Below are positions 112 to 17,045 of a DNA stretch of 18,762 nt, one piece after another. Position 1 is the first letter of the stretch, and the number at the start of each line of letters is the position of its first letter. The DNA comes from Desulfatitalea sp. (GTDB lineage: Bacteria > Desulfobacterota > Desulfobacteria > Desulfobacterales > Desulfosarcinaceae). The stretch lies in contig JABDRH010000399.1 of assembly GCA_013041835.1 (NCBI GenBank), positions 1-18,762 of the forward strand. Reading direction: 5' to 3'. Both the position numbers and the translations under genes were made by a program. Below the pieces are notes generated by a model. It was not told the origin of the DNA. It saw only the letters and a program-made list of their open reading frames with translations, and ran no database searches.

Positions 112-547
112 TATTATCCGGTAGATAGTATGGCAATATGGATTACTTCAACCCTAATTCTGGCGCGCCGCAAAAGAGCCGCACCCAATTAATGTTTATG
201 TAACCAACTGTATTTGATAAATAGAATTATGATTGTATGTAGCGTATACTTGGGAGGGGCGTTGTTGACAAAAAGATAAAAAAGGAAAAGAAAAGATAAA
301 AGATAGAACCTTGCTTGTTTTGAAAGCGACGATGTCAAAGGCGCGATTGTATATCAATGCCCCCCATATAGCAAGCTGTATGGGGGGCATTGACTGGTGA
401 CGTTTATCGAAGCTGACGGCAAATACCTGCCGAGCTTCACTGCAACAAGGGCATAGTGGTGATTTTGAGCCGAATCCGGGCGCACTACACCTATATGATA
501 GTATCGCGTAAAGCCGGTATCGTCATTATTAGTCCCAATAGTCGGTC
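112..547. other. Spacer with no convincing gene
   Basis: This stretch holds no gene I can support. It contains an A/G-rich tract at about 271-308 in which AAGATAAA recurs, and a long hairpin at 354-393 listed separately. A short plus-strand open stretch at about 398-456 (ending in a TAG, with residues EADGKYLPSF) reads like coding sequence, but it is too short to assign and could be a gene remnant. Confidence 0.4.
354..393. repeat. Long near-perfect palindrome (hairpin)
   Basis: Arms 354-368 (TCAATGCCCCCCATA) and 379-393 are perfect 15-base reverse complements. The 10 bases between them can pair for three more positions (one G-T), leaving a four-base loop. No T-run follows on either strand, so it does not look like a standard Rho-independent terminator. 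It could be a REP-type element, a protected transcript end or an insertion scar. Confidence 0.6.
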
Positions 548-690
548 AGCGGCAATCGCGAATAAGTGGTATCTTATGGTGAACTCGGATTCAAACACGG
601 GTATGGGATCGGCACGGGCCTTGGGTGGATCGTTATTTCGTATTTCCCATAGCCCCACCAAGTGCGACAGGATCTTTCGGATCAGCAGTC
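548..690. repeat. Diverged dispersed repeat, copy 1
   Basis: This segment aligns by eye with 8850-8999 in the same orientation. Shared blocks include AAACACGG, ATCGGCAC, CCATAGCCC, GTGCGAC and GGATCTTTC, in the same order and at similar spacing. Copy 1 ends a few bases beyond the 3' end of the acyl-CoA dehydrogenase remnant, and copy 2 ends about 22 bases before the ALDH-tail remnant. Both thus border rearranged genes. Minus-strand reading gives similar peptides in both copies (IRKI.SH and GLW), but neither looks like a real gene. Confidence 0.5.
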
Positions 691-696
691 TGAGCA

Positions 697-2112
697 TCAC
701 AAATATCCTGTGCCTTTTTTTATCAGTTCATCCGCCACAACCAGCCGCCGGATATCCGAAGTTCCGGCGCCGATCTCATACAGTTTGGCATCCCTGTAAA
801 ACCGGTTGATGGGGTATTCCGTGGCGTATCCGTATCCGCCGTGAAGCTGTAGGCAGATATCCGTTGCCCGGCTCACGGCTTCGCCGGTAAACAAAATGGC
901 TGCCGCAGCCAGCTTGTGAATCTGGGTTCCCTTTCCGCCACGCTCGGATACGCCCGCCAATCGCGCTGCCCGGTAAACAAGGCCGCGTGCGGCTTCAATC
1001 TCCGTATATATATTGGCCAACTTGGCTTTCACCATCTGGAACTCACTGATGGGACGGTTAAATTGTTTTCTGGATTTGGTATACTTCAGGGCGATCTCCA
1101 GGGTGGTTTCCCCGATTCCCGGGGCCAGTCCGGCAACCGCGACCCTTTCCGTATCGAGTCCGGTCATCATGACATTGATGCCCCCGTTTATCTGCCCGAC
1201 CTTCCAGCCATACAGGAAGGCAAACCCGCAGACCAGGGTGCTGCCATAGGCGGATTTGAATTCATGGAATCGGCTGCCGTACACAATTCGGGCAATCACT
1301 TCCCGTATATCAAATTGCTTTTTCACATCATCTGGGATAATTCCGTAAAGTTCCTTTGGATCATAATAGGGTTCTTCGATTTCCCTTTGCTCGATGGCCA
1401 CCTTTGGCTCCCTGGGAAAGGCGCCCACAATTTCACGAAGAAGCGCAATGCCTTCTGGCTCGGAATCCACGGCATAATCGGCGGTTCCACTGACACTGCT
1501 GTGGACATCGGCGCCGCCCAGTTCATCCGCCGTCACTTCTTCTCCGGTGGCGGCCTTGACCAGCGGCGGGCCGCCTAAAAACACGCCGCCGGTTTTTCGG
1601 ACCGTGATTGAGTAATCGCACAGGGTGGGGATATAAGCCCCACCGGCGGTGCTGTGTCCCAGAACCAGGGCCACCTGCTTGACGCCCATGGCGCTGAGCA
1701 CGCATTGATTGCGGAACATCCGGCCCGCCATGTGCCGGTCCGCGAACAACCCGGACTGCAGATGGATCACATTGCCGTAATGATCCGCCAGAACCTGGAC
1801 TTCAATATGCCGGGATTTTTCGATGTAGCGCTCGGCATATACCTCACTGTTTTTAAAAGACCGCAATGCCTCGCCTTTGGCCAGTTGGACCGCCTGTTCC
1901 AGGCCGGACATGTCTTTAATAATCTGCATCCCTTTGCCCCCGCCGCCGGCTGCGGCTTTGATGAGCACGGGCAGGCCGATTTGCCCGATCGATTCAATAA
2001 AACTGTGTTCATCCTTTGCACTGGCCACGGAAGGGGCCAGCGGGAAATGATGCGCAATGCACAAATCCCTTGCCGCCACTTTATTGCCCATCATATCAAT
2101 CACATCCGGCAA
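697..2112 (-). pseudogene. In-frame fusion of biotin carboxylase, carboxyltransferase and acyl-CoA dehydrogenase pieces
   Basis: One open frame of 471 codons joins three unrelated enzyme fragments. Residues 1 to about 118 are biotin carboxylase ATP-grasp sequence (AAAGGGGKGM, HIEVQVLADHYGNVIHL). About 119-310 is the middle of a methylcrotonyl-CoA-type carboxyltransferase beta subunit (TAGGAYIP, GGPPLVKAATGEEV, ELGGADVH, GSRFHEFK). About 311-471 is the C-terminal third of an isovaleryl-CoA-dehydrogenase-like protein (GLDTERVAVAG, LHGGYGYA, LYEIGAGTS), retaining the Glu of LDxER, the catalytic base in isovaleryl-CoA dehydrogenase. The junctions lie near 1757-1762 and 1186-1196. Each enzyme lacks large essential parts: biotin carboxylase its C-terminal half, the carboxyltransferase both ends, the dehydrogenase its flavin-binding N-terminal region. 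I read it as the remnant of a leucine-type degradation operon collapsed by internal deletions. The same strand continues upstream into a disrupted 5' end. Confidence 0.8.
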
Positions 2113-2906: not shown

Positions 2907-4232
2907 ATGGAATACCCCAAAATCCAGACGGCCCTTCCGGGGCCCCGGGCAAAAAAGCTGATCGACATCGACGGGCACTATGTTTCCCCCTCCTACACAA
3001 GAGCCTACCCACTCGTCGTCGAATCCGCCAAGGGATTATGGATTCGCGACCCGGACGGCAATGTCTTTCTTGATTTTACCGCAGGCATCGCGGTTTGCGC
3101 GACCGGCCACTGCCATCCCAAGGTGGTGGAAGCGATTAAACAGCAGGCAGATCAACTGCTGCACATGTCCGGTACGGATTTTTATTATACCCCGCAAATT
3201 TTTCTCGCGCAAAAGCTGGCGGCACTGATGTCCGCGGACAGCGGCTATCAAATTTACTTTGGAAACTCAGGCGCGGAAGCCATCGAAGCGGCCTTCAAGC
3301 TGGCCAGGTGGCATACCCGGCGGGAATTGAACATCGCCTTTTTCGGTTCATTTCACGGCCGCACCATGGGAGCGCTTTCGCTCACGGCCAGCAAGGTGGT
3401 TCAAAAAAAACATTACAACCCACTGGTGCCGGGCATCACGCATATTCCATACGCCTACTGCTACCGATGCCCCTATCACCTTTGCTATCCCACCTGCGGG
3501 ATTGCCTGCGTCCAGTGGCTGGAAGAGACCCTGTTTCGGACCAGCATCCCTGCCGAAGAGGTGGCCGCCATCTTCGTGGAACCGATTCAGGGCGAAGGCG
3601 GCTATATCGTTCCGCCGGTGGAATTTCATGCAAAATTACACAAAATCGCCCGCGAGTACGGCATTCTCTACGTGGCGGACGAGGTGCAATCCGGCATGGG
3701 CAGAACCGGCGAAATGCTGGCCATGAAACACTTCGGCGTCCAGCCGGAGATCATCACCCTGGCCAAGGGCATTGCATCCGGACTGCCGCTGGGGGCCATG
3801 GCCGCCCGTTCGGAAATCATGAATTGGGAGGCCGGATCGCATGCCTCCACCTTCGGCGGCAATCCCCTATCCTGCCAGGCCGCCCTTGCCACCATCGAAC
3901 TTCTCGAAAAGGAACTGATGCAAAATGCCCGAAAACGCGGCGAACAACTCATGGCCGGCTTGCACAAAATCCAGAAAACCGTGGAATGTATTGGGGACGT
4001 CCGCGGCAAAGGACTGATGATCGGGGTTGAGCTGGTCAAAGACCGGGAGACCAAGGAACGTGCACCGGATTGGCGCAACCAGCTCATTCAGAATGCTTTT
4101 CAAAAAGGATTGCTGCTGCTGGGCTGCGGGGAGAACACCATACGGCTGAGTCCGGCCCTTACGATCAGTCGAAAAGAAGTCGACGTCTTTTTGAATATTT
4201 TTCAGGAAAGCTTGCTGGAAATTTTCAAATAG
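2907..4232 (+). CDS. Class III PLP-dependent aminotransferase
   Basis: This cytoplasmic enzyme of 441 residues, normal for the 4-aminobutyrate/acetylornithine/lysine aminotransferase family, moves an amino group from an omega-amino acid to a 2-oxoacid. Visible family motifs are GNSGAEAIEAA (phosphate binding), SFHGRT, EPIQGEGG, ADEVQSGMGRTG with Asp258, and LAKGIASGLPLGAM with the Schiff-base Lys287. A Cys-rich loop at about 185-201 (C-x2-C-x4-C-x3-C-x3-C) recalls archaeal 4-aminobutyrate-aminotransferase-like proteins, some of which are amino-acid racemases. The start is the ATG at 2907, with AAGGA seven bases upstream. The dehydrogenase gene follows 20 bases later, so the two are co-transcribed. 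The ALDH7 partner suggests lysine 6-amino transfer, but 4-aminobutyrate or another omega-amino acid is equally possible from sequence alone. Confidence 0.85.
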   Translation: MEYPKIQTALPGPRAKKLIDIDGHYVSPSYTRAYPLVVESAKGLWIRDPDGNVFLDFTAGIAVCATGHCHPKVVEAIKQQADQLLHMSGTDFYYTPQIFLAQKLAALMSADSGYQIYFGNSGAEAIEAAFKLARWHTRRELNIAFFGSFHGRTMGALSLTASKVVQKKHYNPLVPGITHIPYAYCYRCPYHLCYPTCGIACVQWLEETLFRTSIPAEEVAAIFVEPIQGEGGYIVPPVEFHAKLHKIAREYGILYVADEVQSGMGRTGEMLAMKHFGVQPEIITLAKGIASGLPLGAMAARSEIMNWEAGSHASTFGGNPLSCQAALATIELLEKELMQNARKRGEQLMAGLHKIQKTVECIGDVRGKGLMIGVELVKDRETKERAPDWRNQLIQNAFQKGLLLLGCGENTIRLSPALTISRKEVDVFLNIFQESLLEIFK

Positions 4233-4252
4233 AAATAAACATGGAGGAAACC

Positions 4253-5797
4253 ATGGACGTTCAGACATCTTTACTGGATCCCAAGAAAGTCCACCCGGGT
4301 GTGGGGACCGGTACACTCTGGCACCCATGCCGGGGAGAAAAGCTCGTTTCTTTATCTCCCATTGACAGTCAGCCGTTAGGAACCGTGCAGAAAGCATTGG
4401 CCGCGGATTATGAGGGTGCGGCCCATAAGGCTCAAGAAGCATTTCACCAGTGGCGAAAAGTGCCGGCGCCCAATCGGGGAGAAATTGTCCGCCAAATCGG
4501 CAATGCCATCCGGGATCGCAAACAGGAGCTGGCGCGATGGATCAGCCTGGAGGTCGGAAAAATCACCTCAGAAGCCGAGGGCGAAGTTCAGGAGATGATC
4601 GACATCTGCGATTTCGCCGTGGGCCAATCCCGCATGCTCTACGGCCTGAGCATGCACAGCGAACGTCCCGGTCATCGCATGTATGAGCAATGGCACCCTC
4701 TGGGACCGATAGGCGTCATCACGGCCTTCAACTTCCCGGTGGCGGTCTGGTCCTGGAATGCCATGATCGCCCTGATTGCCGGAGATACGGTGATCTGGAA
4801 ACCATCGAGCAAAGCCGCTTTGACGGCCCTGGCCGTCATGAAAGCCATCGCGCCGGTATTGAAGGCCAACACAGTGCCTGAAGGGGTTCTCAACCTGGTC
4901 ATCGGCGACCGGGATGCGGTGGGAGAGCGGCTGCTCGGCGATACCCGGCTACCGCTGATCTCGGCCACCGGCAGCGTGGCCATGGGCCGGCATGTGGGCC
5001 AGGTCGTGTCGACCCGGCTGGGCCGGACGCTACTGGAATTGGGCGGCAACAACGCGGTAATCGTCACCCCCAGCGCCGATCTTCACCTTTCGGTCAGGGC
5101 CATCTTGTTCGGCGCGGTGGGAACCGCCGGACAGCGCTGCACCACCCTTCGGCGGGTCATCGTGCACCAGGATATCCGCGACGCGCTGACAGACGCCTTG
5201 ATCCGCGCCTATCGCCAGGTGGTCGTGGGAAATCCCATGGAACCCGGCGTTCTGATGGGGCCGCTGATCGACCGCCAGGCGGTCCACCAGATGCAAGCGG
5301 CCCTGACCGCCTTGAAAGCGCAGGGCGGCCGGATTCTTTACGGCGGCGAAGTACTCTCCGACGGTTCGTATGCGGCCGGCACCTATGTCCGGCCCTGCAT
5401 CGCCGAAGCGACCCATCAATGCCCCGTTGTCCACCAGGAGACCTTTGCGCCCATTGTCTACCTTGAGACCTATCAAACCATCGAGGAGGCGATCGCACTT
5501 CAAAACAGCGTGCCCCAGGGGCTGAGTTCGGCCATCTTCACCAATGACCTGACGGAGAGCGAATTGTTTTTAAGCGCCATGGGCAGCGATTGCGGCATCG
5601 CCAATGTCAACATCGGCACATCGGGCGCGGAGATCGGCGGCGCCTTCGGCGGTGAAAAAGAGACCGGCGGCGGCCGCGAATCCGGATCCGACGCCTGGAA
5701 AGCCTACATGCGCCGGCAGACCACCACCATCAATTGGTCGAAAGGATTGCCGCTGGCCCAAGACATCCGCTTTGCGCTTGACGATTCAGAAGGGTAG
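4253..5797 (+). CDS. ALDH7-type (aminoadipate-semialdehyde-like) aldehyde dehydrogenase
   Basis: A 514-residue NAD(P)-dependent aldehyde dehydrogenase of the ALDH7 (antiquitin, AmaB) group, which oxidises alpha-aminoadipate semialdehyde to 2-aminoadipate. Motifs in order: AFNFPVAVWSWNAMIAL, GDTVIWKPSSKAALTALA (NAD binding), LLELGGNN with the general base Glu262, GTAGQRCTTLRR with the nucleophile Cys296, and the ALDH7 C-terminal signature GEKETGGGRESGSDAWK then YMRRQTTTINW. I chose the ATG at 4253 because GGAGG (4243-4247) sits five bases upstream. The in-frame ATG at 4241 lacks a comparable site. It follows the aminotransferase in the same operon, fitting sequential deamination and oxidation. 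Its last 79 codons are repeated in decayed form at 9023-9231. Confidence 0.85.
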   Translation: MDVQTSLLDPKKVHPGVGTGTLWHPCRGEKLVSLSPIDSQPLGTVQKALAADYEGAAHKAQEAFHQWRKVPAPNRGEIVRQIGNAIRDRKQELARWISLEVGKITSEAEGEVQEMIDICDFAVGQSRMLYGLSMHSERPGHRMYEQWHPLGPIGVITAFNFPVAVWSWNAMIALIAGDTVIWKPSSKAALTALAVMKAIAPVLKANTVPEGVLNLVIGDRDAVGERLLGDTRLPLISATGSVAMGRHVGQVVSTRLGRTLLELGGNNAVIVTPSADLHLSVRAILFGAVGTAGQRCTTLRRVIVHQDIRDALTDALIRAYRQVVVGNPMEPGVLMGPLIDRQAVHQMQAALTALKAQGGRILYGGEVLSDGSYAAGTYVRPCIAEATHQCPVVHQETFAPIVYLETYQTIEEAIALQNSVPQGLSSAIFTNDLTESELFLSAMGSDCGIANVNIGTSGAEIGGAFGGEKETGGGRESGSDAWKAYMRRQTTTINWSKGLPLAQDIRFALDDSEG

Positions 5798-5845
5798 CAT
5801 AGCGGGACGGGTACTGCCCCATGGGAACGAAGCTATCGCCATGGG
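5561..5845 (+). repeat. ALDH-korA junction repeat, left copy
   Basis: Direct repeat partner of 9023-9279. It covers the ALDH C-terminus from GAATTGTTTTTAAGCGCC, the TAG stop, a four-base spacer and the first codons of a korA homologue. By my count the first 69 bases differ from the right copy at 11 positions. The right copy also lacks some 30 bases (the GGAFGGEKE region). Here the ALDH part is intact and the korA part is dead. Confidence 0.8.
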
Positions 5846-5873
5846 TCAGTTAAACAATATGCTTTTTCAATGA
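5802..5873 (+). pseudogene. Dead 5' end of a second korA copy
   Basis: Four bases after the ALDH stop, the same spacing as the functional korA shows from its dead ALDH tail, the sequence reads GRVLPHGNEAIAMG, matching QLVLTDGNEAIAMG at the start of the intact alpha subunit. The start codon position is GCG instead of GTG. Homology stops abruptly after 5845 and the frame ends at a TGA by 5873. About 15 codons remain. It cannot encode a functional protein and marks the left breakpoint of the inserted block. Confidence 0.75.
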
Positions 5874-5900
5874 ACACACCACCATCGGTTTGACACTGTC

Positions 5901-5919
5901 CCGCCAAGATAGCTGGCGG
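5901..5919. repeat. Hairpin CCGCCA/TGGCGG
   Basis: Six-base perfect arms (5901-5906 and 5914-5919) with a seven-base loop sit just before the MITE-like element. No T-run follows. It could protect the 3' end of the operon transcript, but that is a guess. Confidence 0.35.
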
Positions 5920-5921
5920 TT

Positions 5922-6026
5922 AGGGTTCGCGCAAAATTATATTTTTACTTTTCAGGTAGTTTTGTAACGCAGCCGGGTGAGATGGATCGGCGCATAAAAA
6001 TATGAAGTCATTTTTGCGCGAGCCCT
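5922..6026. mobile_element. MITE-like element with inverted ends (about 105 bp)
   Basis: The ends AGGGTTCGCGCAAAA (5922-5936) and TTTTGCGCGAGCCCT (6012-6026) are reverse complements at 14 of 15 positions. The mismatch would be a G-U pair in RNA. Inside them ATATTTTTA (5939-5947) also finds a partner, TAAAAATAT (5994-6002), so the arms are nearly 30 bases long. There is no coding capacity. A clean target-site duplication is not visible. It may be a non-autonomous transposable element or a dispersed structured repeat. It lies inside the block that splits the operon. Confidence 0.5.
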
Positions 6027-6052
6027 TAGCCCAAGGAATCCGGCTTGGATCT

Positions 6053-6127
6053 GCCGCGAAGCGGCTTACTTGAACCAGTGCATGCACCAGATCCCAAAAG
6101 CCTTCGGCTTTCGGTCCTGGTGATGCC
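6053..6127 (+). other. Structured leader before the histidine kinase
   Basis: Several small dyads crowd this leader: GCCGC-GAA-GCGGC (6053-6065), the 10-base palindrome GTGCATGCAC, and AAAGCC-TTC-GGCTTT near 6098-6112, itself enclosed by CACCAG and CTGGTG. The last could fold as a stem ending just before the kinase ribosome-binding region. No known riboswitch is recognised, and no T-run follows to make it a terminator. Confidence 0.3.
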
Positions 6128-6144
6128 CGGCGTTGGGAATTGAT

Positions 6145-8427
6145 ATGACAGAAGATTTAAAAGTAAAAGTACAGAAGCTATCCGAAATCATTTCAGTATC
6201 TCCTGTTGGAATCGCCATCTACGATCGGTTCGGGCAGTGTATTTCGGCCAACGATTCCCTGGCTCGAATAATCGGCGCCACGAAACAGCAGATGCTTCAG
6301 CAGAACTATAACCGTATCGAATCCTGGAAACAATCCGGCTTGTTGGATATGGCCATGAAGGCAGTCGGATCAAAATCAGCCATGCACCATGAAGTTGTAT
6401 CTGTATCAAGTTTTGGCAAAGAGGTGTTCCTTGATTGCCACATAGTTCCGCTTGGCGACACTGATTTGCTTTTCATGGCGCAAGATATCACCGATCGAAA
6501 GCAAGCGGATATAAACTTTAAAGCATCTCTTCAGATGGCAGATGATATTGTTCGGCATATTCCATTTGGCATACTGATTTACCAGTTTGTTGCGCCAGAT
6601 AAACTGTACCTAAAATCCGGCAATTCCGAAGCAGAAAAGATGACCGGAAGAAAACTTGCCGACATGGTGGGAATGGAGCTAAAAGACAGTTGGGAGGGGG
6701 CGGAGGAAATCGGTCTGGCAAAATCCTATTTAGATGTCATGTTAACTGGTAAAAATTATGAAACTGACGAAATATTCTACAAGGATAAAAAGCTTGCAGC
6801 CTTTTTCCGTGTCTGTGCCTTTCCACTGCCGAACGATTTACTGGCAATAACGTTTGAGAATATTACAGAGAAAAAATTGGCGGAAAAAGAGCTGCATCGC
6901 GCTAAAGCGTATTCAGAAAAACTCATAGAATCCGCCAATGCGATGATCGTGGTTCTGGACAACAAAGGCAGAGTTCAAAGGTTCAACAAGGCGGCAGAGG
7001 AAATTACCGGTTATCAGTGTCAAGAACTTTTGGGCCGCAATTGGTTCAAAATATTGGTGCCGAAGGATGCATATCCAGACGCCTGGGAGGCCTTCACGCA
7101 ACCCACACACGAGAAGTTTCCTCGTGTATTTGAAAACCCCATTATGACAAAAGCGGGCAGAGAACGGTTTATATCATGGCGGAATACGGCCTTATTTGAA
7201 GACGGTCTTTTTGTCGGTTCCATTTCTTACGGCATCGATGTCACCGAACGCAAACAACTGGAAAGTCAACTGCTGCAAACACAAAAGATGGAAGCTATCG
7301 GACAACTGACCGGGGGCATAGCGCATGACTTCAACAATATGCTCAGCGTCATTTTGGGGCATGCCGAGTTGTTAAAATCCAGTTTGCCTCCGGGAGATCC
7401 TTTGTTGAAAAGTGTTTTGGAAATTGAAAATGCGGGACTTCACTCAAGAGATATCACCCGTCAACTGTTGGCTTTTTCCAGAAAACAGATCATTGCCCCA
7501 AAGACTACGAATCTAAATAAATCGATTGCCATTATAAAAAAGACGCTTACAAACCTCATTGGTGAAAATATTGACTTGCGGTTTTTACTGCAAAAGAATC
7601 TTTGGACCGTCAGGATTGATCCTTCGCAAGTCGATCAGATTCTTTTCAATTTATCTGCGAATGCGCGTGATGCTATGCCTGACGGTGGTACCCTGGCAAT
7701 CGAAACATCCAACATTGATATTGATGAGGCCTTTTGCGCTTTACAAGCGGAGTGCCTGCCTGGCCAATACGTATTGTTATCGGTGACCGATGATGGCGTT
7801 GGAATGGATAAGGAGATGCTTTTGCATGTTTTTGAACCGTTTTATACAACTAAAGGATTAGAAAAAGGCACAGGTCTCGGATTGGCAACCGTTTATGGAA
7901 TTACCCGGCAAAACGGTGGTTTTATCACTATTCACAGTGATCCTGGAAAAGGCACCACATTCAATGTATATATCCCTAAACTAATGGATGAAGTTCAAGA
8001 AGATACCGTAGAAGAAAAATCCCCGATAGAGTTTCACCCGGCAACTGTACTATTGGTCGAAGACGATGATATGGTACGCAGGATGACGGCTGAAATCTTA
8101 AAAGAAATCGGATACTCGGTTTTGATAGTAGATACCCCCACAGAAGCATTGGCACTGTTTGAAAAAAATGATACGCCCATTGATCTTTTGATTACCGATG
8201 TGATTATGCCGCAGATGAGTGGTACGGAATTAGTCTCAAAAATAAACAAATTAAAACCGGAAGTGAAAGTCCTGTATATGTCCGGGCATACGGAAAATAT
8301 TATTGTCCGTCAGGGTATTTTAAAGGAAGGTATCCATTTTGTTCAAAAACCTTTCAGTATGAGCGATTTGGCAAAAAAGGTCCGCGAAACAATAGAAGAC
8401 CAGTATGATCAGAGAAAGCTCTTTTAA
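6145..8427 (+). CDS. Hybrid sensor histidine kinase with three PAS domains and a receiver
   Basis: A 760-residue, apparently soluble hybrid kinase with no membrane segment. Three PAS domains occupy about 10-115, 120-240 and 245-365, the first and third ending in D[IV]T[DE]RK linkers and the second in a similar NITEKK. The HisKA dimer domain carries the phosphate-accepting His394 (GGIAHDFNN). The ATPase follows, with N box Asn506 (NARDAMPDGG), DDGVGMD, FEPFYTTKG and GTGLGLATVYG. A receiver at about 634-755 has acidic residues EDDD, the acceptor Asp685 (ITDVIMP) and the KPF lysine. All catalytic residues are present. The ATG at 6145 is preferred (GGGA six bases upstream) to an in-frame TTG at 6133. 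No response regulator lies beside it, so the output partner is unknown. The gene sits inside the block that separates ALDH from korA and has lower GC than its neighbours. Confidence 0.9.
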   Translation: MTEDLKVKVQKLSEIISVSPVGIAIYDRFGQCISANDSLARIIGATKQQMLQQNYNRIESWKQSGLLDMAMKAVGSKSAMHHEVVSVSSFGKEVFLDCHIVPLGDTDLLFMAQDITDRKQADINFKASLQMADDIVRHIPFGILIYQFVAPDKLYLKSGNSEAEKMTGRKLADMVGMELKDSWEGAEEIGLAKSYLDVMLTGKNYETDEIFYKDKKLAAFFRVCAFPLPNDLLAITFENITEKKLAEKELHRAKAYSEKLIESANAMIVVLDNKGRVQRFNKAAEEITGYQCQELLGRNWFKILVPKDAYPDAWEAFTQPTHEKFPRVFENPIMTKAGRERFISWRNTALFEDGLFVGSISYGIDVTERKQLESQLLQTQKMEAIGQLTGGIAHDFNNMLSVILGHAELLKSSLPPGDPLLKSVLEIENAGLHSRDITRQLLAFSRKQIIAPKTTNLNKSIAIIKKTLTNLIGENIDLRFLLQKNLWTVRIDPSQVDQILFNLSANARDAMPDGGTLAIETSNIDIDEAFCALQAECLPGQYVLLSVTDDGVGMDKEMLLHVFEPFYTTKGLEKGTGLGLATVYGITRQNGGFITIHSDPGKGTTFNVYIPKLMDEVQEDTVEEKSPIEFHPATVLLVEDDDMVRRMTAEILKEIGYSVLIVDTPTEALALFEKNDTPIDLLITDVIMPQMSGTELVSKINKLKPEVKVLYMSGHTENIIVRQGILKEGIHFVQKPFSMSDLAKKVRETIEDQYDQRKLF

Positions 8428-8849
8428 GCTTTTCAACGGCCAAAACAGGAGTCTATGAGGACCACGAACCCAGGAACCTTATTTGTGGGGGGGGTGTAGC
8501 TGCAAATACTGTGTTGGAAGGTATCGATGCACGATAGGGCTTGACTGCAAACTGATAATAACCATTGAAAATTACGCAACCACGATACCAAAAGTCCAGA
8601 TTATCACGGATTTTAGGGAGGGCTGCCCCCCAATGCTGTTGACTTCAAAATAGCTGTGCGTCACTTGCGGGCGGCCATAAAGCCCGCCCCTACAAAATTT
8701 GGACGGCGAGCCGCTCTGATGCATGACACCATTGGCTTTCAATGCCCCTAATATTACAAATCTTTGTGGGTTATGACAACCGCTGACAAATGGCAGCAAC
8801 AACGCACCCGTCGTTGAACGTGGAGACACCCCACATCGGTATTGAAGGC
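8428..8849. other. Spacer with no gene, low-complexity and repeat sequence
   Basis: No coding region is supported. Contents are a run of eight G (8487-8494), a short region with GGGAGGGCTGCCCCCC near 8617-8632, and a GC-rich hairpin at 8667-8690 listed separately. Minus-strand open frames across this stretch have no recognisable domain. Confidence 0.4.
8667..8690. repeat. GC-rich intergenic hairpin repeat
   Basis: GCGGGC (8667-8672) pairs with GCCCGC (8682-8687). An alternative register pairs GGGCGG with CCGCCC. Followed by CCCCTACAAAATTT, it resembles the GTAGGGGCGG...CCGCCC type of intergenic repeat that is common in some deltaproteobacterial-type genomes (from memory, not searched). Confidence 0.4.
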
Positions 8850-8999
8850 AGCCGTCCAGCGACAGTTGCGAATTTGTGGTGCCGATGGTAAGCTCGGTTA
8901 GAAACACGGACACGGACAGGTAATCGGCACAGGATTGCAGCGAGTCTCGATTTCCGGTCTTCCATAGCCCACAGTGCGACTGGATCTTTCTGATCATCG
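8850..8999. repeat. Diverged dispersed repeat, copy 2
   Basis: Partner of 548-690. Shared ordered blocks include CAGCG, GCGAAT, AAACACGG, ATCGGCAC, CCATAGCCCA, GTGCGAC and GGATCTTTC. It ends about 22 bases before the right-hand ALDH-tail remnant. No terminal inverted repeats or reading frame are apparent. Confidence 0.5.
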
Positions 9000-9022
9000 G
9001 CTATGCTTTGGATTCCATCATC

Positions 9023-9231
9023 GAATTGTTTTTAAGCGCCAAGGGCTGCAACTGCGGCATCGCCGATGTCCCTACCGGCACATGCGGCGCGAAATCCGTC
9101 GGCAGCCGCGAATCCGACGCCGAAGCGCGGAAACCGGCAAGCGGCGACAGACTACCACCAACAACGGATCGGGGAAATTGCCGCTGCCCCAAGGCATCCG
9201 CTTTGACGTCAACGACGACCCAAAAGGATAG
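9023..9231 (+). pseudogene. Decayed C-terminus of a second ALDH7 dehydrogenase
   Basis: ELFLSAKGCNCGIADVPTGT matches ELFLSAMGSDCGIANVNIGT of the intact dehydrogenase. About ten residues (GGAFGGEKE region) are then deleted, remnants of the RESGSDAWK motif follow, and the match moves to another frame: RRQTTTNNGSGKLPLPQG and IRFDVNDDPKG up to the TAG at 9229-9231, against RRQTTTINWSKGLPLAQD and IRFALDDSEG. The remnant starts sharply at GAATTG (9023), with repeat sequence just upstream. It records an earlier ALDH gene directly upstream of this korA, with the stop-to-start spacing preserved at four bases. Confidence 0.8.
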
Positions 9232-9235
9232 CTCA

Positions 9236-10357
9236 GTGCAGTTGGTGCTGACCGATGGAAACGAAGCCATCGCCATGGGGGCCGCCTACGCGGGCTGCCG
9301 CTTTTTCGCCGCTTATCCCATCACACCGGCCAGTACCCTGTTTTCATCCATGCTTAGGCTGCTGCCTCCCAAAGACGGGATCGTCATTCAGGGAGAAGAT
9401 GAAATCGCCTCCATCGGCTTCTGCCTCGGGGCGTCCATGACAGGCCTGAAGGCCATGACCGCCACCTCCGGTCCCGGCTTGAGCCTTTACAGTGAAAACA
9501 TCTCTTTTGCCATTGCCGGAGAAATTCCCATCGTCATCGTCAATGTGATGCGCCAGGGGCCGTCCACCGGCTCGGCCACACGGGGAGCCGATGGGGACGT
9601 GCAATTCATGCGTTGGGGCAACAGCGGCGGTCTTCCCGTCATCGTCCTGGCACCGGTGGATGTCCGCGATTGCTTTGCATTGACGGTTCACGCCTTCAAT
9701 CTGGCCGAACGGTTCCGCTGCCCGGTCTTTATCGCCTCCAACAAAGAGATTGCCATGACCCGGGAAACCCTGAACATGGCATCCCTTGAGAAGTCCGCTG
9801 TGATCGAAAGAACCGGCCATGCCGGGGGCCCCTTTCACCCCTTCGGTGTCGATGCCGGCAATGACGTCCCGGCCTTTCTTCCCATCGGTGGATCGACGCT
9901 GGTCCGGCAAACCTCGTCCACCCACGGTAAAGATGGGTATATCACCACCGACCCCGATTTTATTCAAGCCGGCGTGGCGCGCTTGAAGCGAAAAATCGAT
10001 GCCCATGCCGACCCGATTCACCGATTTGACCAAACGATTGAAAAAGAGGCCCGGTGGCTCATTGTCACCTACGGGGTAACGGCCCGGGCCGTCCGGGAAG
10101 CCGTGCGTATGCTACGCGAGACGTACCAAACGCCGGTGTCCACCCTGGTCATCAAAAGCCTCTGGCCGGTCCCAGAGGCCGCCATCGCGGCGGCCGCGGA
10201 AAACGTCGACCATGTCCTGGTGGTGGAAATGAATCTGGGGCAGTATGTCCATGAGATCCGCCGGGTCTTGTGCGGTCGAAAAGTGGACTTTTTCGGAAAA
10301 ATGTCTGGACAGTTGATCACGCCGAAGCAGATCAGCCAACAGGTGATTGATGGATAG
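9236..10357 (+). CDS. korA: 2-oxoacid:ferredoxin oxidoreductase, alpha subunit
   Basis: A 373-residue alpha subunit of the KorA/VorA type. With the beta-gamma protein it decarboxylates a 2-oxoacid to its acyl-CoA and reduces ferredoxin. Visible are the substrate-loop motif YPITPAS, GEDEIASIG (the Glu that activates thiamine diphosphate), TATSGPGLSL and the second-domain motif VVEMNLGQ near the C-terminus. I start it at the GTG at 9236 because homology begins there, AAAGGA (9222-9227) lies eight bases upstream, and codons farther upstream in the same frame belong to the ALDH remnant. The next gene overlaps its end by eight bases. The substrate cannot be read from sequence: 2-oxoadipate, 2-oxoglutarate or a branched-chain oxoacid are all possible. 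The symbol is a family label only. Confidence 0.8.
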   Translation: MQLVLTDGNEAIAMGAAYAGCRFFAAYPITPASTLFSSMLRLLPPKDGIVIQGEDEIASIGFCLGASMTGLKAMTATSGPGLSLYSENISFAIAGEIPIVIVNVMRQGPSTGSATRGADGDVQFMRWGNSGGLPVIVLAPVDVRDCFALTVHAFNLAERFRCPVFIASNKEIAMTRETLNMASLEKSAVIERTGHAGGPFHPFGVDAGNDVPAFLPIGGSTLVRQTSSTHGKDGYITTDPDFIQAGVARLKRKIDAHADPIHRFDQTIEKEARWLIVTYGVTARAVREAVRMLRETYQTPVSTLVIKSLWPVPEAAIAAAAENVDHVLVVEMNLGQYVHEIRRVLCGRKVDFFGKMSGQLITPKQISQQVIDG

Positions 10358-11648
10358 CCTTTTAAATCCCGATCGACCGCCGGTGTTTTGCCCCGGCTGC
10401 TCCCATGAACGAAGCCTGAAGGCCTTGGATCAGGCATTCCGGCACATGCGGCTGGCCAGAGATAAGATCGTCATGGTCAGCGATATCGGCTGTTCGGGCC
10501 TATTCGACACATTTTTCAACACCCATGCCTTCCACGGCCTGCACGGCAGGGCCCTGACCTATGCAACGGGCATCAAGCTGTCCCGTCCCGATCTCAAAGT
10601 GGTGGTGACCATGGGAGACGGCGGATTGGGCATCGGCGGCGCCCACCTGCTGGCCGCCTGCCGGAGAAACCTGGACTTGACCCTTCTGGTGTTGAACAAC
10701 TTTAATTTCGGCATGACCGGCGGACAATACTCTTGCACCACACCGGCCGACGCATCCACGCCCTCGGCCTTTCTTTCCCAAATCGAAAAGCCAATGGATA
10801 TTTGCACCGTGGCCGCCGCCGCCGGAGCTCCCTTTGTGGCCCGGGCATCCGCCCATCGGCAAGGCCTGGTGGATCTTGTGGAACGGGCCATCACCTTTGA
10901 AGGCTTTTCCATCGTGGACATCTGGGGCATTTGCACGGGGCGCTATCTGAAAAACAATCCCTTAAATCCCGCTGGCATTGACGCCGTGCTTCACTCCCTG
11001 CCGCCCTGTTCAGGATTGGTGACCGCCAACGAACGTCCGGAATATGGAAAACAGCATCGGCAAAAACGAGGCCTTCCCGCCACCGGTGAATCATGGACAC
11101 CCGTCAAATCGGCCTTTTCCCCATCCATTGACGCGCAAAGGCAAGTTGTCCTATTGGGCAGCGCCGGCCAAAAGATCATCTCCGCCGGATTCATATTGGC
11201 AACGGCGGCGCTATCGGCAGGCCTTCAGGTCACCCAGAAAAACGAGTACAATATCACGGTGATGAGGGGACCCTCCGTGACCGAGCTAATTATTTCACCC
11301 GATCTCATTGACTACACGGGCATCGAGCAACCGGCGGCGCTGGTCTGCCTGTCACAGGAAGGGGTCGGCAAGCGACTCGATCTTTTCAGAAAAACATCCA
11401 CCCATTGCCGGGTGATCAAAGCTGCGGATGTCCGTATCCCCCCAAGCCACGGAGCGATTCTCGAAATAGACTTTAAGGCTCTAGGCATTAAGCCAAACGA
11501 ACGCGCCCTGGCAGCCATAGCCCTGTTGGCCAAGGCCAATGACCCAATTACCCTTGCCATGCTTGAAACCGCCCTGAAAAATTCCCTTAAAGCCGCACAG
11601 TTCCAAGACACCATGGGCTTGATCGCAAGGGGCCTTGCTTTAAAATAG
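10350..11648 (+). CDS. korB: 2-oxoacid:ferredoxin oxidoreductase, fused beta and gamma subunits
   Basis: A 432-residue protein. Residues 1 to about 210 are the thiamine-diphosphate-binding beta subunit: Cys14 and Cys17 (FCPGCSHE), Cys48 (DIGCSG) and Cys195 (GICTGRY) are the four expected ligands of the proximal [4Fe-4S] cluster, and MGDGGLGIGG followed by NNFNFGMTGGQ is the diphosphate/Mg site. After a linker of about 50 residues, positions 264 to about 430 are the gamma domain (VVLLGSAGQKIISAGFILA, MRGPSVTELIISP, CLSQEG). Beta and gamma are often separate genes, so this is a fused form. No ferredoxin-like delta subunit is encoded nearby. The ATG at 10350 overlaps the korA stop and has AGGTG just upstream, so it is probably translationally coupled. 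Confidence 0.85.
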   Translation: MDSLLNPDRPPVFCPGCSHERSLKALDQAFRHMRLARDKIVMVSDIGCSGLFDTFFNTHAFHGLHGRALTYATGIKLSRPDLKVVVTMGDGGLGIGGAHLLAACRRNLDLTLLVLNNFNFGMTGGQYSCTTPADASTPSAFLSQIEKPMDICTVAAAAGAPFVARASAHRQGLVDLVERAITFEGFSIVDIWGICTGRYLKNNPLNPAGIDAVLHSLPPCSGLVTANERPEYGKQHRQKRGLPATGESWTPVKSAFSPSIDAQRQVVLLGSAGQKIISAGFILATAALSAGLQVTQKNEYNITVMRGPSVTELIISPDLIDYTGIEQPAALVCLSQEGVGKRLDLFRKTSTHCRVIKAADVRIPPSHGAILEIDFKALGIKPNERALAAIALLAKANDPITLAMLETALKNSLKAAQFQDTMGLIARGLALK

Positions 11649-12251: not shown

Positions 12252-13055
12252 TTATTGTCTCGCCTGGCCTTTAGCAGCCGCCTGGGCACTTTTCCAAATC
12301 GATCGATAGGCCGTCAATTCCGAAAATCCACCGTCAACAGCCAGGTCCTGACCCGTGATGAAGCTGGATTCGTCACTGGCAAAGAATAGAACAGCGGCGG
12401 CCATCTCCTCTGCCTCGCCCGCCCGTTCCATCGGCGTGCTCCCGGACATGGTCTTGAATAAAATGCCGTTCGGATCAATGATAGGCGTGCGAATAAGGCC
12501 CGGATGGACCGTATTGACGCGTATTTTCCAGTCCACCAACTCCATTGCCGCCGATTTTGAAAGACCGCGAAGCCCCCACTTGGAGGCGGCATAGGCAGTG
12601 GTCGGATGCCCCATCTTCCCGGCCCGTGAGCCGATATTGATGATTGAACCACCTCCGCTGGCCCGGATCAGCGGTGCGCATTAACGGATACCACGCATCG
12701 GGCCGGTCAGATTGATGGCCAGGATTCGATCCCAGTCTCCAAGATCCATATCCGTAACCTGATACCGTACGTTGATTCCCGCGTTGTTGACAAGAATATG
12801 CAGCGCAGAAAACTCTTCTTCGACACTTTTGATTACCCGTTTCCAGGCCTCTTGCGAGGCAACGTCCAGTGAATGATAGACCGCTTTCCCGCCATCGTCC
12901 CGGATCGCTTTGGCAACGGACGCCCCTTGCTCGTCCAGCACATCACCAATGATGACTGCGGCGCCTTCTCTGGCGAAAATCCTTGCTTCCGTGGCGCCCA
13001 TGCCGCGCGCGCCACCAGTGATCAATGCAACTTTACCATCTAACTTTCCAGGCAT
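12252..13055 (-). pseudogene. Short-chain dehydrogenase/reductase broken by an in-frame stop
   Basis: A classical SDR of about 267 codons, the full family length. From the start: GKVALITGGARGMGATEA (NAD(P) binding, TGxxxGxG), Asp of the GDVLD segment, LVNNAGIN, NLTG, then SIINIGS with the catalytic Ser, and YAASK with the catalytic Tyr and Lys. The C-terminus has VHPGLIRTP and the usual FITGQDLAVDGGF. A TAA at 12681-12683 interrupts it between MRGIR and CAPLIRASGGG. The frame is the same on both sides, so a single nonsense change is enough to explain it. The ATG at 13055 (GAGGA about five bases upstream) is the natural start. The specific substrate is unknown; the sequence is similar to 3-oxoacyl or hydroxysteroid reductases. 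Read-through, a sequencing error or two-part translation are alternatives. Confidence 0.8.
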
Positions 13056-13341
13056 AATCGTCCTCGCTTCTTGGATGGTTATCGACAGGTAACTATAAAT
13101 GCCTCTGGCCAAGTAGAAAACGGATGATCACAACCAAACTTTTGCTGCAGCAGCGCTTTCCCCAGTGCTGCAAAAGCCTGAGAAGGTTGCAGCCCTGATC
13201 CCATGCGAATCGAACTGACCGTTATTACACGCGCGGGAAAGTGTCAACCTCTTTTTTTTCAACAAAAGTAGTCGTATAGCCTTTAAAAAAGTCGTGAGTA
13301 TCGAACCGCTGACCTGTGAGGGAGTTATCGGGCCTCGTCGC
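13056..13341. other. Spacer between the lipoprotein and short-chain dehydrogenase genes
   Basis: About 290 bases without a supported gene. A TTGACA on the minus strand near 13245 has no convincing -10 partner. A hairpin at 13139-13176 is listed separately. Confidence 0.4.
13139..13176 (-). other. Hairpin between lipoprotein and dehydrogenase genes
   Basis: CTTTTGC (13139-13145) pairs with GCAAAAG (13170-13176), and inside it GCAGC (13150-13154) pairs with GCTGC (13167-13171); with a small bulge the stem can continue. On the minus strand it is followed by TTTGGTT, a poor T-run. It might end or attenuate the transcript from the lipoprotein gene. Confidence 0.3.
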
Positions 13342-14445
13342 CTATCGGCCCAGAATCGCACGCTGCAAATTCCCGGTTTTCTGGGCATACAGTTCCGGAA
13401 GGAACCGCTTTAAATCCTGCATTTCATAATTGATATGCGCTTCGAGCGCATCGACAAACGACTGAGGCGTCATTGCCGGAAGTACAGCGACGGAATGTAT
13501 TTTTATGCCGCCGGGTGTTTCTTTAAGGGTGTGGGTAAGCTGCCCCATCACCTCATTATCCGGGCTCATGAAACCCGCCCCGCCTTCGATTATGCTCAGA
13601 CAAAATTCAGTGTAATATGGCCAAATCATTTCCTTGATGGTAATGCGTGGACCGTAAGGCGTCATAGACATTTCATTCACGAAGTGCATCTCCGGCCACC
13701 ACAACCTGTAATTTTCCACCCCATTGATGGCCCACCAGTCCCACATCTCCATGGTAATACCCGCTATTTCCTGGTCGACGATCAGCTCAACCACATCACC
13801 CTCAGACGCTTTGTAAGCCTCATGCAAAACGTCATGTCCCGTTGGCGGTTGCTCATACAGTTCTGGATTCTCATACAGTTCCGGAAGAAATCTTGGCAGA
13901 TCCTGCACCTCATCATGAAAATGGTCTTCGAGTGCATCAATAAATGACTGGGGTGTCTTTGCCGGTAATGTATGCACCGCTTTTATAAGAACACCTTTGG
14001 ATGTCGGTGTAACTGATCCGTATACAGCGCCCATTACTTCGCCATCAGGGGATAAAAATTCCATGACGCCATCATGATCTATAAGAATTATAAATTCAGT
14101 ATAATATGGCCAAATCATTTCCTTGATGATTCCTCGAATTTCACCCTCCGGCGTCATATGCCTTTCCTCGACAAAGTGCATCTCGGGCCACCATAACCTG
14201 TAATAATCAGGAATATTTTGCCCCCACCACACAAACATCTCTAGTGAAATACCAACGACTTCCCTTTCACACACGGCATCCACCGTCTCACCCCCAGATT
14301 CTTCAAAAGCCTTTAGCAAGAGCTCATGTCCAGTGGGCGGAGGCGTTAGATTGACATTTTTTTCTTTTCTACACCCCAAAAACCCAAACAATAAGGAGAA
14401 AACTGCCATTATGCTTACGATGCGCCATAATCCCTTTGCCTTCAT
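13342..14445 (-). CDS. Lipoprotein with two tandem DAPG-hydrolase (PhlG)-like domains
   Basis: A 367-residue protein whose signal peptide (MKAKGLWRIV start) ends in the lipobox FGFLGC, with Cys25 for lipidation, so it is membrane-anchored and exported. The rest is two copies of a domain of about 157 residues (35-191 and 199-353), each starting PPTGH and sharing YRLWWPEMHF, IKEMIWPYYTEF, TPQSF and RFLPELY. The order W-W, RLWxPxxH, a middle Glu and HxxxE...FLPELY matches the 2,4-diacetylphloroglucinol hydrolase family, where two His and two Glu bind zinc. Candidates here are His90, Glu109 or Glu117, His175 and Glu179 in repeat one, and His254, Glu272 or Glu280, His337 and Glu341 in repeat two. 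Both repeats are shorter than PhlG. The substrate is unknown. The start at 14445 follows a GGGAGA site on the coding strand. Confidence 0.7.
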   Translation of the reverse strand: MKAKGLWRIVSIMAVFSLLFGFLGCRKEKNVNLTPPPTGHELLLKAFEESGGETVDAVCEREVVGISLEMFVWWGQNIPDYYRLWWPEMHFVEERHMTPEGEIRGIIKEMIWPYYTEFIILIDHDGVMEFLSPDGEVMGAVYGSVTPTSKGVLIKAVHTLPAKTPQSFIDALEDHFHDEVQDLPRFLPELYENPELYEQPPTGHDVLHEAYKASEGDVVELIVDQEIAGITMEMWDWWAINGVENYRLWWPEMHFVNEMSMTPYGPRITIKEMIWPYYTEFCLSIIEGGAGFMSPDNEVMGQLTHTLKETPGGIKIHSVAVLPAMTPQSFVDALEAHINYEMQDLKRFLPELYAQKTGNLQRAILGR

Positions 14446-14490
14446 CTTATTCTCCCTCTCCTTTCTTTTAATGTTAAAATGACTCAACAA

Positions 14491-14528
14491 GTTCAATTAC
14501 TGCTATACTTATTCAGCAATTATTGAAC
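14491..14528. promoter_or_regulatory. Inverted repeat upstream of the lipoprotein gene
   Basis: GTTCAATTACTGCT (14491-14504) and its imperfect partner ending ATTGAAC (14522-14528) match at 12 of 14 positions with about ten bases between. It lies 46 bases upstream of the minus-strand ATG at 14445, where a regulator site or a leader hairpin would be expected. No convincing -35/-10 pair could be assigned. Confidence 0.4.
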
Positions 14529-15132: not shown

Positions 15133-15645
15133 ATGCCATCGAAACAAGTGACCATCAGCGCCCGAATTTCCCATGAAGATGCTGAATTTTTAAGTCAAAT
15201 GAAAATAAACGGCGCCGAAACGCCTAGCGATAAGTTGCGCGGACTGATCGCTGAAGCCAGACGCCGGCATAACACAAGCCTGGATTATGCCGGCAGCCTG
15301 CAGATGCTCCATGAGCTTATTTTTCCAATTATTCAACAGGTTCGCCAAAAGGAGGTTGATCATCAGGTCCATTCGGAGGTCATATCCCGTCTATCGGAAT
15401 GGGTGCCTGATACATTGGCATTTCTTATTTCATTTTTTCCTCAAACCAAAAGCCAAGACGATCTGCAAAATCTGCTCCAGTTGGAGCAAGGCTTGGTGAA
15501 GCGTTTGTTTCTGTTATTGGAGGCATTTTTGCAGTTGGCCATTTCAAGCCACTGCCCGTGTTATGAGCCGGATACGATTCAAAAAAGGATAAGGCCTGTG
15601 TTGGATTTATGTGGTATTATTGCAAATCGTCAACAAGCCCAATAA
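15133..15645 (+). CDS. Possible ribbon-helix-helix protein leading the psp operon
   Basis: A 170-residue protein I do not recognise as a named family. The first 45 residues (KQVTISARISHEDAEFL, then a Lys/Arg-rich helix ending EARRRH) have the beta-strand-plus-two-helix look of a ribbon-helix-helix DNA-binding domain. The remainder is helical and rich in Leu and Gln (HELIFPIIQQV, LLQLEQGLVKRLFLLLEAFL), with a Cys pair near SSHCPCYEP. AAGGAG at 15121-15126 is six bases before the ATG. The stop overlaps the ribosome site of pspA, so it is in the same operon. A role as autoregulator or as a PspA partner is inference from position and the two dyads upstream. Confidence 0.6.
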   Translation: MPSKQVTISARISHEDAEFLSQMKINGAETPSDKLRGLIAEARRRHNTSLDYAGSLQMLHELIFPIIQQVRQKEVDHQVHSEVISRLSEWVPDTLAFLISFFPQTKSQDDLQNLLQLEQGLVKRLFLLLEAFLQLAISSHCPCYEPDTIQKRIRPVLDLCGIIANRQQAQ

Positions 15646-15655
15646 GGAGCTTACT

Positions 15656-16348
15656 ATGAAAGAAAGAATCATCAAGCGCGTCGGACGAATTGTTAGCGGC
15701 AGCTTTAATTCCATAGTAGACGCCATAGAAAATGCCGCTCCCGAGACGGTGATGGCGGAAGCTGTTCGAGAGGTGGATGGGGCCATTGATGAACTAAGGG
15801 CCGAGTTGGGCAAAGTTGTGGCCAATAAGCATCTATCCAACATGCGATTAATGGAAGCCAATAAAAAACACGAGGACTTGACCGAAAAAATAGAACTTGC
15901 TCTCAAAGCCAAAAGGGAAGACCTGGCCGAAACGGCTGTCTCCCAACAACTTGATATTGAAGCACAGATACCGGTTTTGGAAGCCACCATCAAAGATTGC
16001 AGTGACCAGGAAAAGGAAATGGAAGGTTATGTCAACGCGCTGCTGGCAAAAAAAAGAGAAATGCAGGAAGAATTGCGCCAGTATCGGCAAAGCCGGGTGG
16101 AATCGCAAGCAGCGGATGAAACAGTTGATACTTCGACGAGCGGTAGTGGCGCCGGTATTGAAAGCCGTGTATCACAAGCGGAATCTGCCTTTGACCGCGT
16201 GATTGAAAAGGCCACCGGACTGCCGGGGACCGTCGGCAGCGGTGATCGCAAATCGGCTGCACAACTGGCTGAACTCGAATCCATGGCTCACAAGAACCGT
16301 ATCCAAGAACGCCTGGCCGCCATTAAGGGCAAAATGGAAAGTCGTTGA
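15656..16348 (+). CDS. pspA: PspA/IM30-family membrane-stress protein
   Basis: A 230-residue protein, the usual PspA length. PspA-family (ESCRT-III-like) proteins bind and stabilise damaged inner membrane as large helical oligomers. The N-terminal amphipathic helix (MKERIIKRVGRIVSGSFNSI) is followed by a long, almost uninterrupted coiled coil rich in Glu, Lys, Ala and Gln, with the typical AVREVDGAIDELRAEL segment. Near 160-190 a Gly/Ser/Thr-rich break precedes a final helix ending AAIKGKMESR. The ATG at 15656 has AAGGAG six bases upstream (15644-15649). Its TGA overlaps the start of the next gene (TGATG). Association with YqiJ and a flotillin suggests control of membrane domains, as in PspA-flotillin pairs elsewhere. 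Confidence 0.85.
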   Translation: MKERIIKRVGRIVSGSFNSIVDAIENAAPETVMAEAVREVDGAIDELRAELGKVVANKHLSNMRLMEANKKHEDLTEKIELALKAKREDLAETAVSQQLDIEAQIPVLEATIKDCSDQEKEMEGYVNALLAKKREMQEELRQYRQSRVESQAADETVDTSTSGSGAGIESRVSQAESAFDRVIEKATGLPGTVGSGDRKSAAQLAELESMAHKNRIQERLAAIKGKMESR

Positions 16349-17010: not shown

Positions 17011-17045
17011 GTTGAATCAATACGATACGGAAAGGTGTGCGTAAA

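Follow-up and report, generated by a model that had tools for sequence, protein, structure and literature searches.

A gene junction present in two copies, one on each side of a histidine kinase, in a probable lysine-breakdown operon of an uncultured Desulfatitalea

How can an operon gain an internal gene at a junction where stop and start codons are four bases apart, while both neighbours stay whole? The question is raised by a stretch of 18,762 nucleotides from Desulfatitalea sp. (contig JABDRH010000399.1, assembly GCA_013041835.1), an uncultured relative of sulfate reducers; the stretch, indicated below as the window, is the entire contig C130 of a metagenome-assembled genome (MAG) of 4.3 Mb, 693 contigs and 86.9% completeness. 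Genes follow each other on the plus strand in the order aminotransferase, aldehyde dehydrogenase (ALDH), hybrid histidine kinase, korA, korB, the kinase being contained in a block that separates ALDH from korA. The end of ALDH, its stop codon, a 4-nt spacer and the first 44 bases of korA are present twice, at 5561-5845 and at 9023-9279, one copy on each side of the block. The history favored here, with a probability of about 0.6, is a tandem duplication of the ALDH/korA junction within the lineage, with a kinase cassette and mobile-element debris lodged between the copies and decay of the redundant halves.

The duplicated junction

The two copies, and a short motif contained in one of them, are located as follows.

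5561-5845, plus strand: left junction copy, with the living ALDH tail (5561-5797), the spacer CATA and a dead korA head (5802-5845)
9023-9279, plus strand: right junction copy, with a decayed ALDH tail (9023-9231), the spacer CTCA and the living korA head (9236-9279)
9224-9228, plus strand: AAGGA, putative korA ribosome-binding site, as read from the sequence

The presence of two junctions, already noticed in the original prediction, is well supported: local alignment of the copies scores 244, while the maximum in 200 mononucleotide shuffles is 96, and blast aligns them at 69% identity (E 1.1e-28). In the left copy, the stop TAG (5795-5797) and CATA are followed by GCG at 5802, where the korA start belongs; ALDH is whole and the korA head dead, just as first described. 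In the right copy, the stop TAG (9229-9231) and CTCA precede the GTG at 9236 which opens korA. MAFFT alignment to the left copy shows two gaps, of 30 nt and 1 nt, and 3 extra nt in the right ALDH tail, whose reading frame is therefore broken. The right copy had been read as a dead ALDH tail in front of a living korA: this stands for korA and for the broken frame of the tail, but not for the last codons of the tail, which are probably not dead, because they carry AAGGA, 7 nt before the korA GTG.

The ALDH halves of the two copies differ at 34 of 201 aligned positions and the korA heads at 11 of 44, and the longest identical run is 19 bases. Similarity ends at 5845 and resumes at 9023, two edges that later deletions could have set. 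A blast search of the 86.9% complete MAG found two matching places only, with no third copy of the junction and no further copy of 5300-5850. Within the block, no other piece of ALDH, korA or aminotransferase was found (E 1e-5).

The copies end alike, and oddly, at the ALDH C-terminus (DDSEG and DDPKG): as evidence this common ending is weak, since ending lengths vary among relatives, one of 28 of which ends in ...SEGR. The decayed tail is also open in the korA frame (9008-9235, plus strand), making an N-terminal extension of KorA by up to 76 codons possible on paper; the start at 9236 was picked by comparison with homologues.

The high divergence of the copies had been taken to point to paralogous operons or to a diverged donor. 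The differences were polarised by determining, for each of them, which copy departs from the relatives. For the ALDH half, 29 tails (L057-L085) were used, the best of those obtained from 389 genomes of the order, 97 of which gave a match; this analysis stops at the IRF motif, leaving out the last codons, where alignment is unsure, and places gaps differently from the MAFFT alignment of the junction copies. Over 179 aligned sites, the right copy is the one that changed in 26 of the 30 differences and the left copy in 4; with five alignment settings, right-derived changes range from 26 to 31 and left-derived ones from 4 to 7. The 26 right-derived changes fall at codon positions 1/2/3 in numbers of 11/8/7, and 21 are nonsynonymous. 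As a control, each living relative was substituted for the right copy: left-derived changes become 10-18 over the same 179 sites, and 71% of the derived changes of the relatives are at position 3. Over the full 213 sites the values are 14-23 and 74%, so the contrast shrinks when the control is restricted. Position 3 accounts for 58-74% of the differences between the left copy and each of the 29 living relatives, and for 10 of the 30 between the junction copies; by Fisher test against single relatives, p is 0.005 for L057, the nearest ALDH, and 0.006 for L061, from the order-level relative G070.

Because few changes are left-derived, and those right-derived show no excess at position 3, the substitution pattern indicates that the copies were nearly identical when they split, after the lineage had left all 29 relatives, and that the dead halves have drifted since; for the right ALDH tail, drift is free of codon constraint. 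The paralogous or diverged origin first suggested by raw divergence is less favored than near-identity followed by decay. The redundant halves act here as an internal clock, and codon-position polarisation tells old paralogues from duplication with decay where raw divergence misleads.

For the korA head, 7 of the 11 differences are left-derived (the lost start included) and 4 right-derived, when all 62 distinct relatives are used; with the 7 relatives sharing the DGN motif, to which a first polarisation was confined before both sets were taken, 6 are left-derived, 3 right-derived and 2 are ties. This result is less sure, because the 3-4 right-derived changes fall in the living gene. The dead halves have changed at like rates, 26/179 for ALDH and 6/44 to 7/44 for the korA head, as expected if both died together, the korA-head sample being small.

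The block between the copies

The following features are found in the block.

5920-6029, no strand assigned: element similar to a miniature inverted-repeat transposable element (MITE), with terminal inverted repeats; boundaries approximate, from alignment with 15 loci
6133-8427, plus strand: hybrid histidine kinase with PAS, HisKA, HATPase_c and receiver domains (Pfam)
8595-8795, no strand assigned: interspersed repeat, with 11 other partial matches on 7 contigs of the same MAG, 80-98% identical
8857-9002, minus strand: remnant of an ISCR/IS91-type transposase gene, C-terminal end, with 67% DNA identity over 146 nt to L150:330-469

Together they form a mosaic, where about 74 bases without an assigned repeat family are followed by a shortened MITE copy, the kinase, the interspersed repeat and the transposase remnant. 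A split operon with duplicated edges, and a block carrying a histidine kinase, a MITE and repeats, are thus found as originally described; that no recombinase is left is not quite correct, as 8857-9002 is the C-terminal remnant of a transposase. The MITE is short, bounded by terminal inverted repeats and present in many copies: it is internally shorter than longer copies elsewhere in the MAG, and its conserved arm, 5956-6030, recurs at 39 or more other places in the same MAG (40 of 134 candidates scored).

The transposase remnant stops 20 nt short of the right junction copy. Itself without a Pfam match, it was recognised through its relative L150, from a genome of the same genus (G004). The frame of L150 scores 27.8 bits with Pfam Zn_Tnp_IS91 (cut-off 26.3) and also matches positions 454-506 of the 509 of the NCBIfam ISCR clade Ia model (E 4e-8; 32 bits, where the whole-protein cut-off is 925). 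ISCR/IS91-type elements are defined by zinc-binding and Y2 (HUH) domains, and what is present here is a terminal remnant only; two Y2_Tnp matches above cut-off are found elsewhere in the MAG. Pfam scanning of two frames of the block, the kinase and 8572-8997 (minus strand, no Pfam match), revealed no integrase, and no replication or mobilisation gene was identified in the same two frames.

A second, longer ISCR/IS91-type terminal remnant is found at 298-703 (minus strand), with 78% DNA identity to L150 over 408 nt; it starts about 12-14 nt past the stop of a fused frame, 697-2112, described below. In all, five such remnants from three genomes (the same MAG, G004 and G006) are available: L151, L152, L153 and those at window positions 8994 and 682 (minus strand). 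They diverge from L150 and from each other within about 15 nt of one point, and this common endpoint suggests a defined non-autonomous unit, not random truncation.

The kinase frame runs for 764 codons without a stop, with an alternative ATG at 6145. Its nearest homologue, of 943 aa, is 70% identical over 749 aa without gaps, residue 7 of the query being aligned to residue 194. Matches to P0123, P0125, P0126 and P0130 begin at 187-220, to P0146 at 55 and to P0156 at 72: since N-terminal length varies among homologues, the kinase would be an N-terminally short form, not necessarily broken. When the first 260 residues of 14 homologues were searched against 5798-6200, no trace of a lost N-terminus came up below E 0.05. 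No kinase orthologue was found at 1e-150 in 30 relatives, with at most the best 34 first-look candidates scored per genome.

Drift to the extent seen in the dead ALDH tail (13-17%) should have left the kinase with about 11-15 stops. In simulations assuming uniform substitution, stop-free copies were 0 of 300 at 13% neutral substitution and 2 of 300 at 5%. As simulated neutral drift almost never leaves the frame open, the kinase would either have been kept by selection or have arrived after the duplication, and it is probably in use. Windows inside the kinase have 40-46% G+C, versus 52-66% in the flanking genes, which are intact. A promoter-like match of 11 out of 12 bases precedes the aminotransferase (2821-2850), a weak one, 9 out of 12, is located inside the kinase (7571-7599), and a pattern scan of 5798-9236 found no terminator-like site on the plus strand. 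A single five-gene transcript is possible, though weakly indicated, because terminator-like sites are no commoner than in shuffled sequence (12 versus 12.6).

Accounts of the split

An insertion into this junction would be expected to harm one gene, because stop, four bases and start follow one another, with the putative korA ribosome-binding site inside the end of ALDH. Where the junction is duplicated, each gene has a whole end of its own, and other DNA could be accommodated harmlessly between the copies. In the history favored here, a tandem duplication within the lineage would leave about 285 spare bases after the ALDH stop, up to the second korA start; other DNA, consisting of the kinase cassette and mobile-element debris, would lodge harmlessly in this spare stretch. 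The left korA head and the right ALDH tail would then drift without selection, except for the last codons of the latter, which would still supply the korA ribosome-binding site, and the kinase, oriented in the same direction as the operon, would be kept open. The original size of the duplication, the order of duplication and insertion, their belonging to one event or two, co-transcription and the metabolic pathway are presumed parts of this account. A slower history fits with the piled-up repeats and with the lack of a recognised integration gene. The locus may be seen as the readable fossil of a tight operon gaining an internal gene.

The relative with an unsplit ALDH-korA, suggested as a comparison, was found. 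Direct adjacency is seen in one of 29 ALDH loci and one of 29 KorA loci of relatives, both from G070, with a 12-nt spacer; this is compatible with an unsplit ancestral state. Adjacency is absent from all 48 loci of the genome_contigs set, whose flanks are short, many contigs ending nearby. In G039 the order is reversed, korA preceding ALDH by 2.7 kb on the same strand.

A number of observations weigh against a duplication followed by insertion. The inserted DNA abuts the edges of both copies, which a random later insertion would not usually do, and a block exactly fitting the copy edges would, unless later deletions set them, favor a one-step event. The breakpoints, 5845 and 9023, are taken from the assembly. 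The polarised sample is small (179 + 44 sites), 3-4 korA-head differences are polarised as right-derived, and Fisher p rises to 0.051 when the relative least biased toward position 3 is taken. Finally, ten genomes of the same genus gave no close ALDH (none at 1e-170, with at most the best 3 candidates scored per genome) or KorA (best 3e-72, versus 2e-139 to 1e-159 for whole orthologues in other genera), and neither the duplicated nor the unsplit state is seen in close relatives.

The exact position of the block between copies of one stretch is accounted for at once by a one-step insertion-duplication, where the kinase block and about 285 bp of the junction, joined in a circular molecule or in a fragment made circular by ligation, would have entered through a single homologous crossover. 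Of what such an event should leave, direct copies of the same stretch do flank the inserted DNA, and the copies were nearly identical at the event, as judged from a small sample. The genes stay whole, since homology spans the junction, and near-identity merely needs a donor fragment of the same lineage. Yet a molecule joining foreign DNA to a short piece of the operon is required, no such donor was found, the junction matching at two places only in the MAG, and the two block frames scanned hold no identified replication, mobilisation or integrase gene; the one-step course is considered possible, but on the unlikely side. Rather doubtful is its fuller version, in which a foreign sensor kinase entered a catabolic operon by natural insertion-duplication across a gene seam and was kept, perhaps, as a co-transcribed regulator of lysine breakdown; on this reading junction duplication, if recurrent, would be a general route for tight operons to acquire an internal gene. 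A tandem duplication of the whole operon, with the DNA from the first korA head to the second ALDH tail later lost and replaced, is compatible with the same substitution pattern, provided the copies were nearly identical, and the mobile-element ends near both edges are plausible deletion agents. It needs, however, a larger duplication and a large replacement, while the search of the block (E 1e-5) turned up nothing from a second aminotransferase, the 5' part of ALDH or the 3' part of korA, and no further copy of 5300-5850 was found elsewhere in the MAG: this history appears improbable.

Two other explanations are given very little credit. Recombination of old paralogous operons, or single-crossover uptake of clearly diverged related DNA, would suit the present differences (34/201 and 11/44, plus indels) and the few ancestral-looking states, such as Q-G-I-R-F, that the right tail keeps and the left has lost; it predicts differences mainly at position 3, as in relatives (58-74%), where the copies have 10 of 30, and 26 of the 30 changes are on the dead side. 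Among the options of the original prediction, a tandem duplication, short or operon-wide, with replaced middle and a single crossover are hence compatible with the data if the copies were nearly identical, while the paralogous or diverged versions are disfavored. An artefact joining unrelated pieces at interspersed repeats is suggested by the repeats adjoining both kinase edges, which are found elsewhere in the MAG. Their longest exact matches, however, are 42 nt for the left repeat (15 loci compared) and 38 nt for the right one (9 loci compared), short in comparison with usual reads, and no run of identical bases in the two junction copies exceeds 19, so that these are no assembly duplication; a false join is unlikely but possible, and as an explanation of the whole locus it is very improbable.

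Two further candidates were rejected. Target-site duplications of known transposons are of a few to about fourteen bp: the duplicated stretch, of about 285 bp, is too long, and about 74 bp of the block precede the MITE. An integrase-driven element was set aside, as scanning of the two longer block frames, the kinase and 8572-8997, showed no integrase.

Insertion-duplication, a Campbell-type single crossover, is used for laboratory mutagenesis, and a fragment spanning gene ends keeps both neighbours whole. The present locus resembles it in the direct copies of a homologous stretch flanking inserted DNA, and differs in that no vector, replication or integration gene was found and the copies are decayed. 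Some integrative elements, such as phages in icd, bring along a new 3' end for the gene they enter. As there, a dead, displaced gene tail is found here next to a living one, but no integrase was found, and the duplicated stretch covers two gene ends, on both sides. A likeness to ISCR/IS91-type rolling-circle elements is provided by the last residues of the transposase gene, at 8857-9002 and 298-703; unlike complete elements, these are terminal remnants only, with no sign that one moved the block.

Steps similar to those discussed are described in the literature. For E. coli, linear DNA is stated to be made circular by ligation and then to integrate by a single crossover (PMC3240628). Among tandem duplications and merodiploidy in transformation, a small cassette duplication lacking flanking repeats is reported for S. 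pneumoniae as an "additive insertion" (PMC3784515); shared with the present locus are a direct duplication, foreign DNA at or near it and a redundant part free to decay. The S. pneumoniae events are fresh laboratory duplications, ranging from 3,276 bp to about 900 kb, while the present one is of at least 285 bp, natural and not recent. The ingredients (duplication with additive insertion, circularisation and single crossover, decaying halves, MITEs, transposase debris) are all known; strict search terms on natural duplication-buffered insertion returned nothing, which is no proof of absence.

Operon genes and neighbouring features

The remaining plus-strand genes of the operon are listed below.

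2907-4232, plus strand: class-III aminotransferase, first gene of the operon (Pfam Aminotran_3, 1.4e-117; NCBIfam NF004426, 617 bits, cut-off 552)
4247-5797, plus strand: living ALDH of the L-piperidine-6-carboxylate dehydrogenase family (NCBIfam NF050084; Pfam Aldedh)
9236-10357, plus strand: living korA, 2-oxoacid:ferredoxin oxidoreductase alpha subunit (Pfam POR_N, PFOR_II)
10347-11648, plus strand: living korB, beta subunit with POR (gamma-type) domain (Pfam TPP_enzyme_C, POR)

ALDH belongs to the L-piperidine-6-carboxylate dehydrogenase family, with an NF050084 score of 786.2 bits, above the curated cut-off of 730. The aminotransferase is a candidate lysine aminotransferase. For KorA, membership in the superfamily is safe, as Pfam domains are over their cut-offs, while the substrate is a presumed one: the score against its best NCBIfam model, NF006412 (2-oxoacid:acceptor oxidoreductase subunit alpha), is 389.3, short of 411 bits. 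The best KorA match is at 66% in 145 relatives and at 67% in genome_contigs; 61 plasmid records are all below 60% identity and provide no lead.

The aminotransferase, ALDH, korA and korB probably form a tight operon for lysine breakdown via 2-oxoadipate to glutaryl-CoA, a reading suggested because neighbouring genes in G070 and G073 fit the pathway. In G070 a thiolase and a 3-hydroxyacyl-CoA dehydrogenase precede ALDH-korA-korB; in G073 a Glu/Leu/Phe/Val-type dehydrogenase is located between ALDH and korA. Among the matches listed by a search on lysine catabolism, none concerns this operon. Rfam gave zero matches across the window.

Other features were observed outside the operon. On the minus strand, at 697-2357, the frame 697-2112 fuses pieces of a biotin carboxylase and of a carboxyl transferase with the C-terminal part of an acyl-CoA dehydrogenase, and a further biotin-carboxylase piece, weakly matched, lies upstream of it (2100-2357); the region looks like a collapsed acyl-CoA carboxylase/dehydrogenase cluster. 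A short-chain dehydrogenase at 12252-13112 (minus strand) is split into an N-terminal part, 12681-13112, and a C-terminal part, 12252-12614, likely by a frameshift. The protein encoded at 13342-14496 (minus strand) is composed of two similar halves in tandem, with DNA repeats about 490 nt apart and a weak DAPG_hydrolase match. A cluster of PspA/IM30, YqiJ and flotillin genes is located at 15611-18762, on the plus strand.

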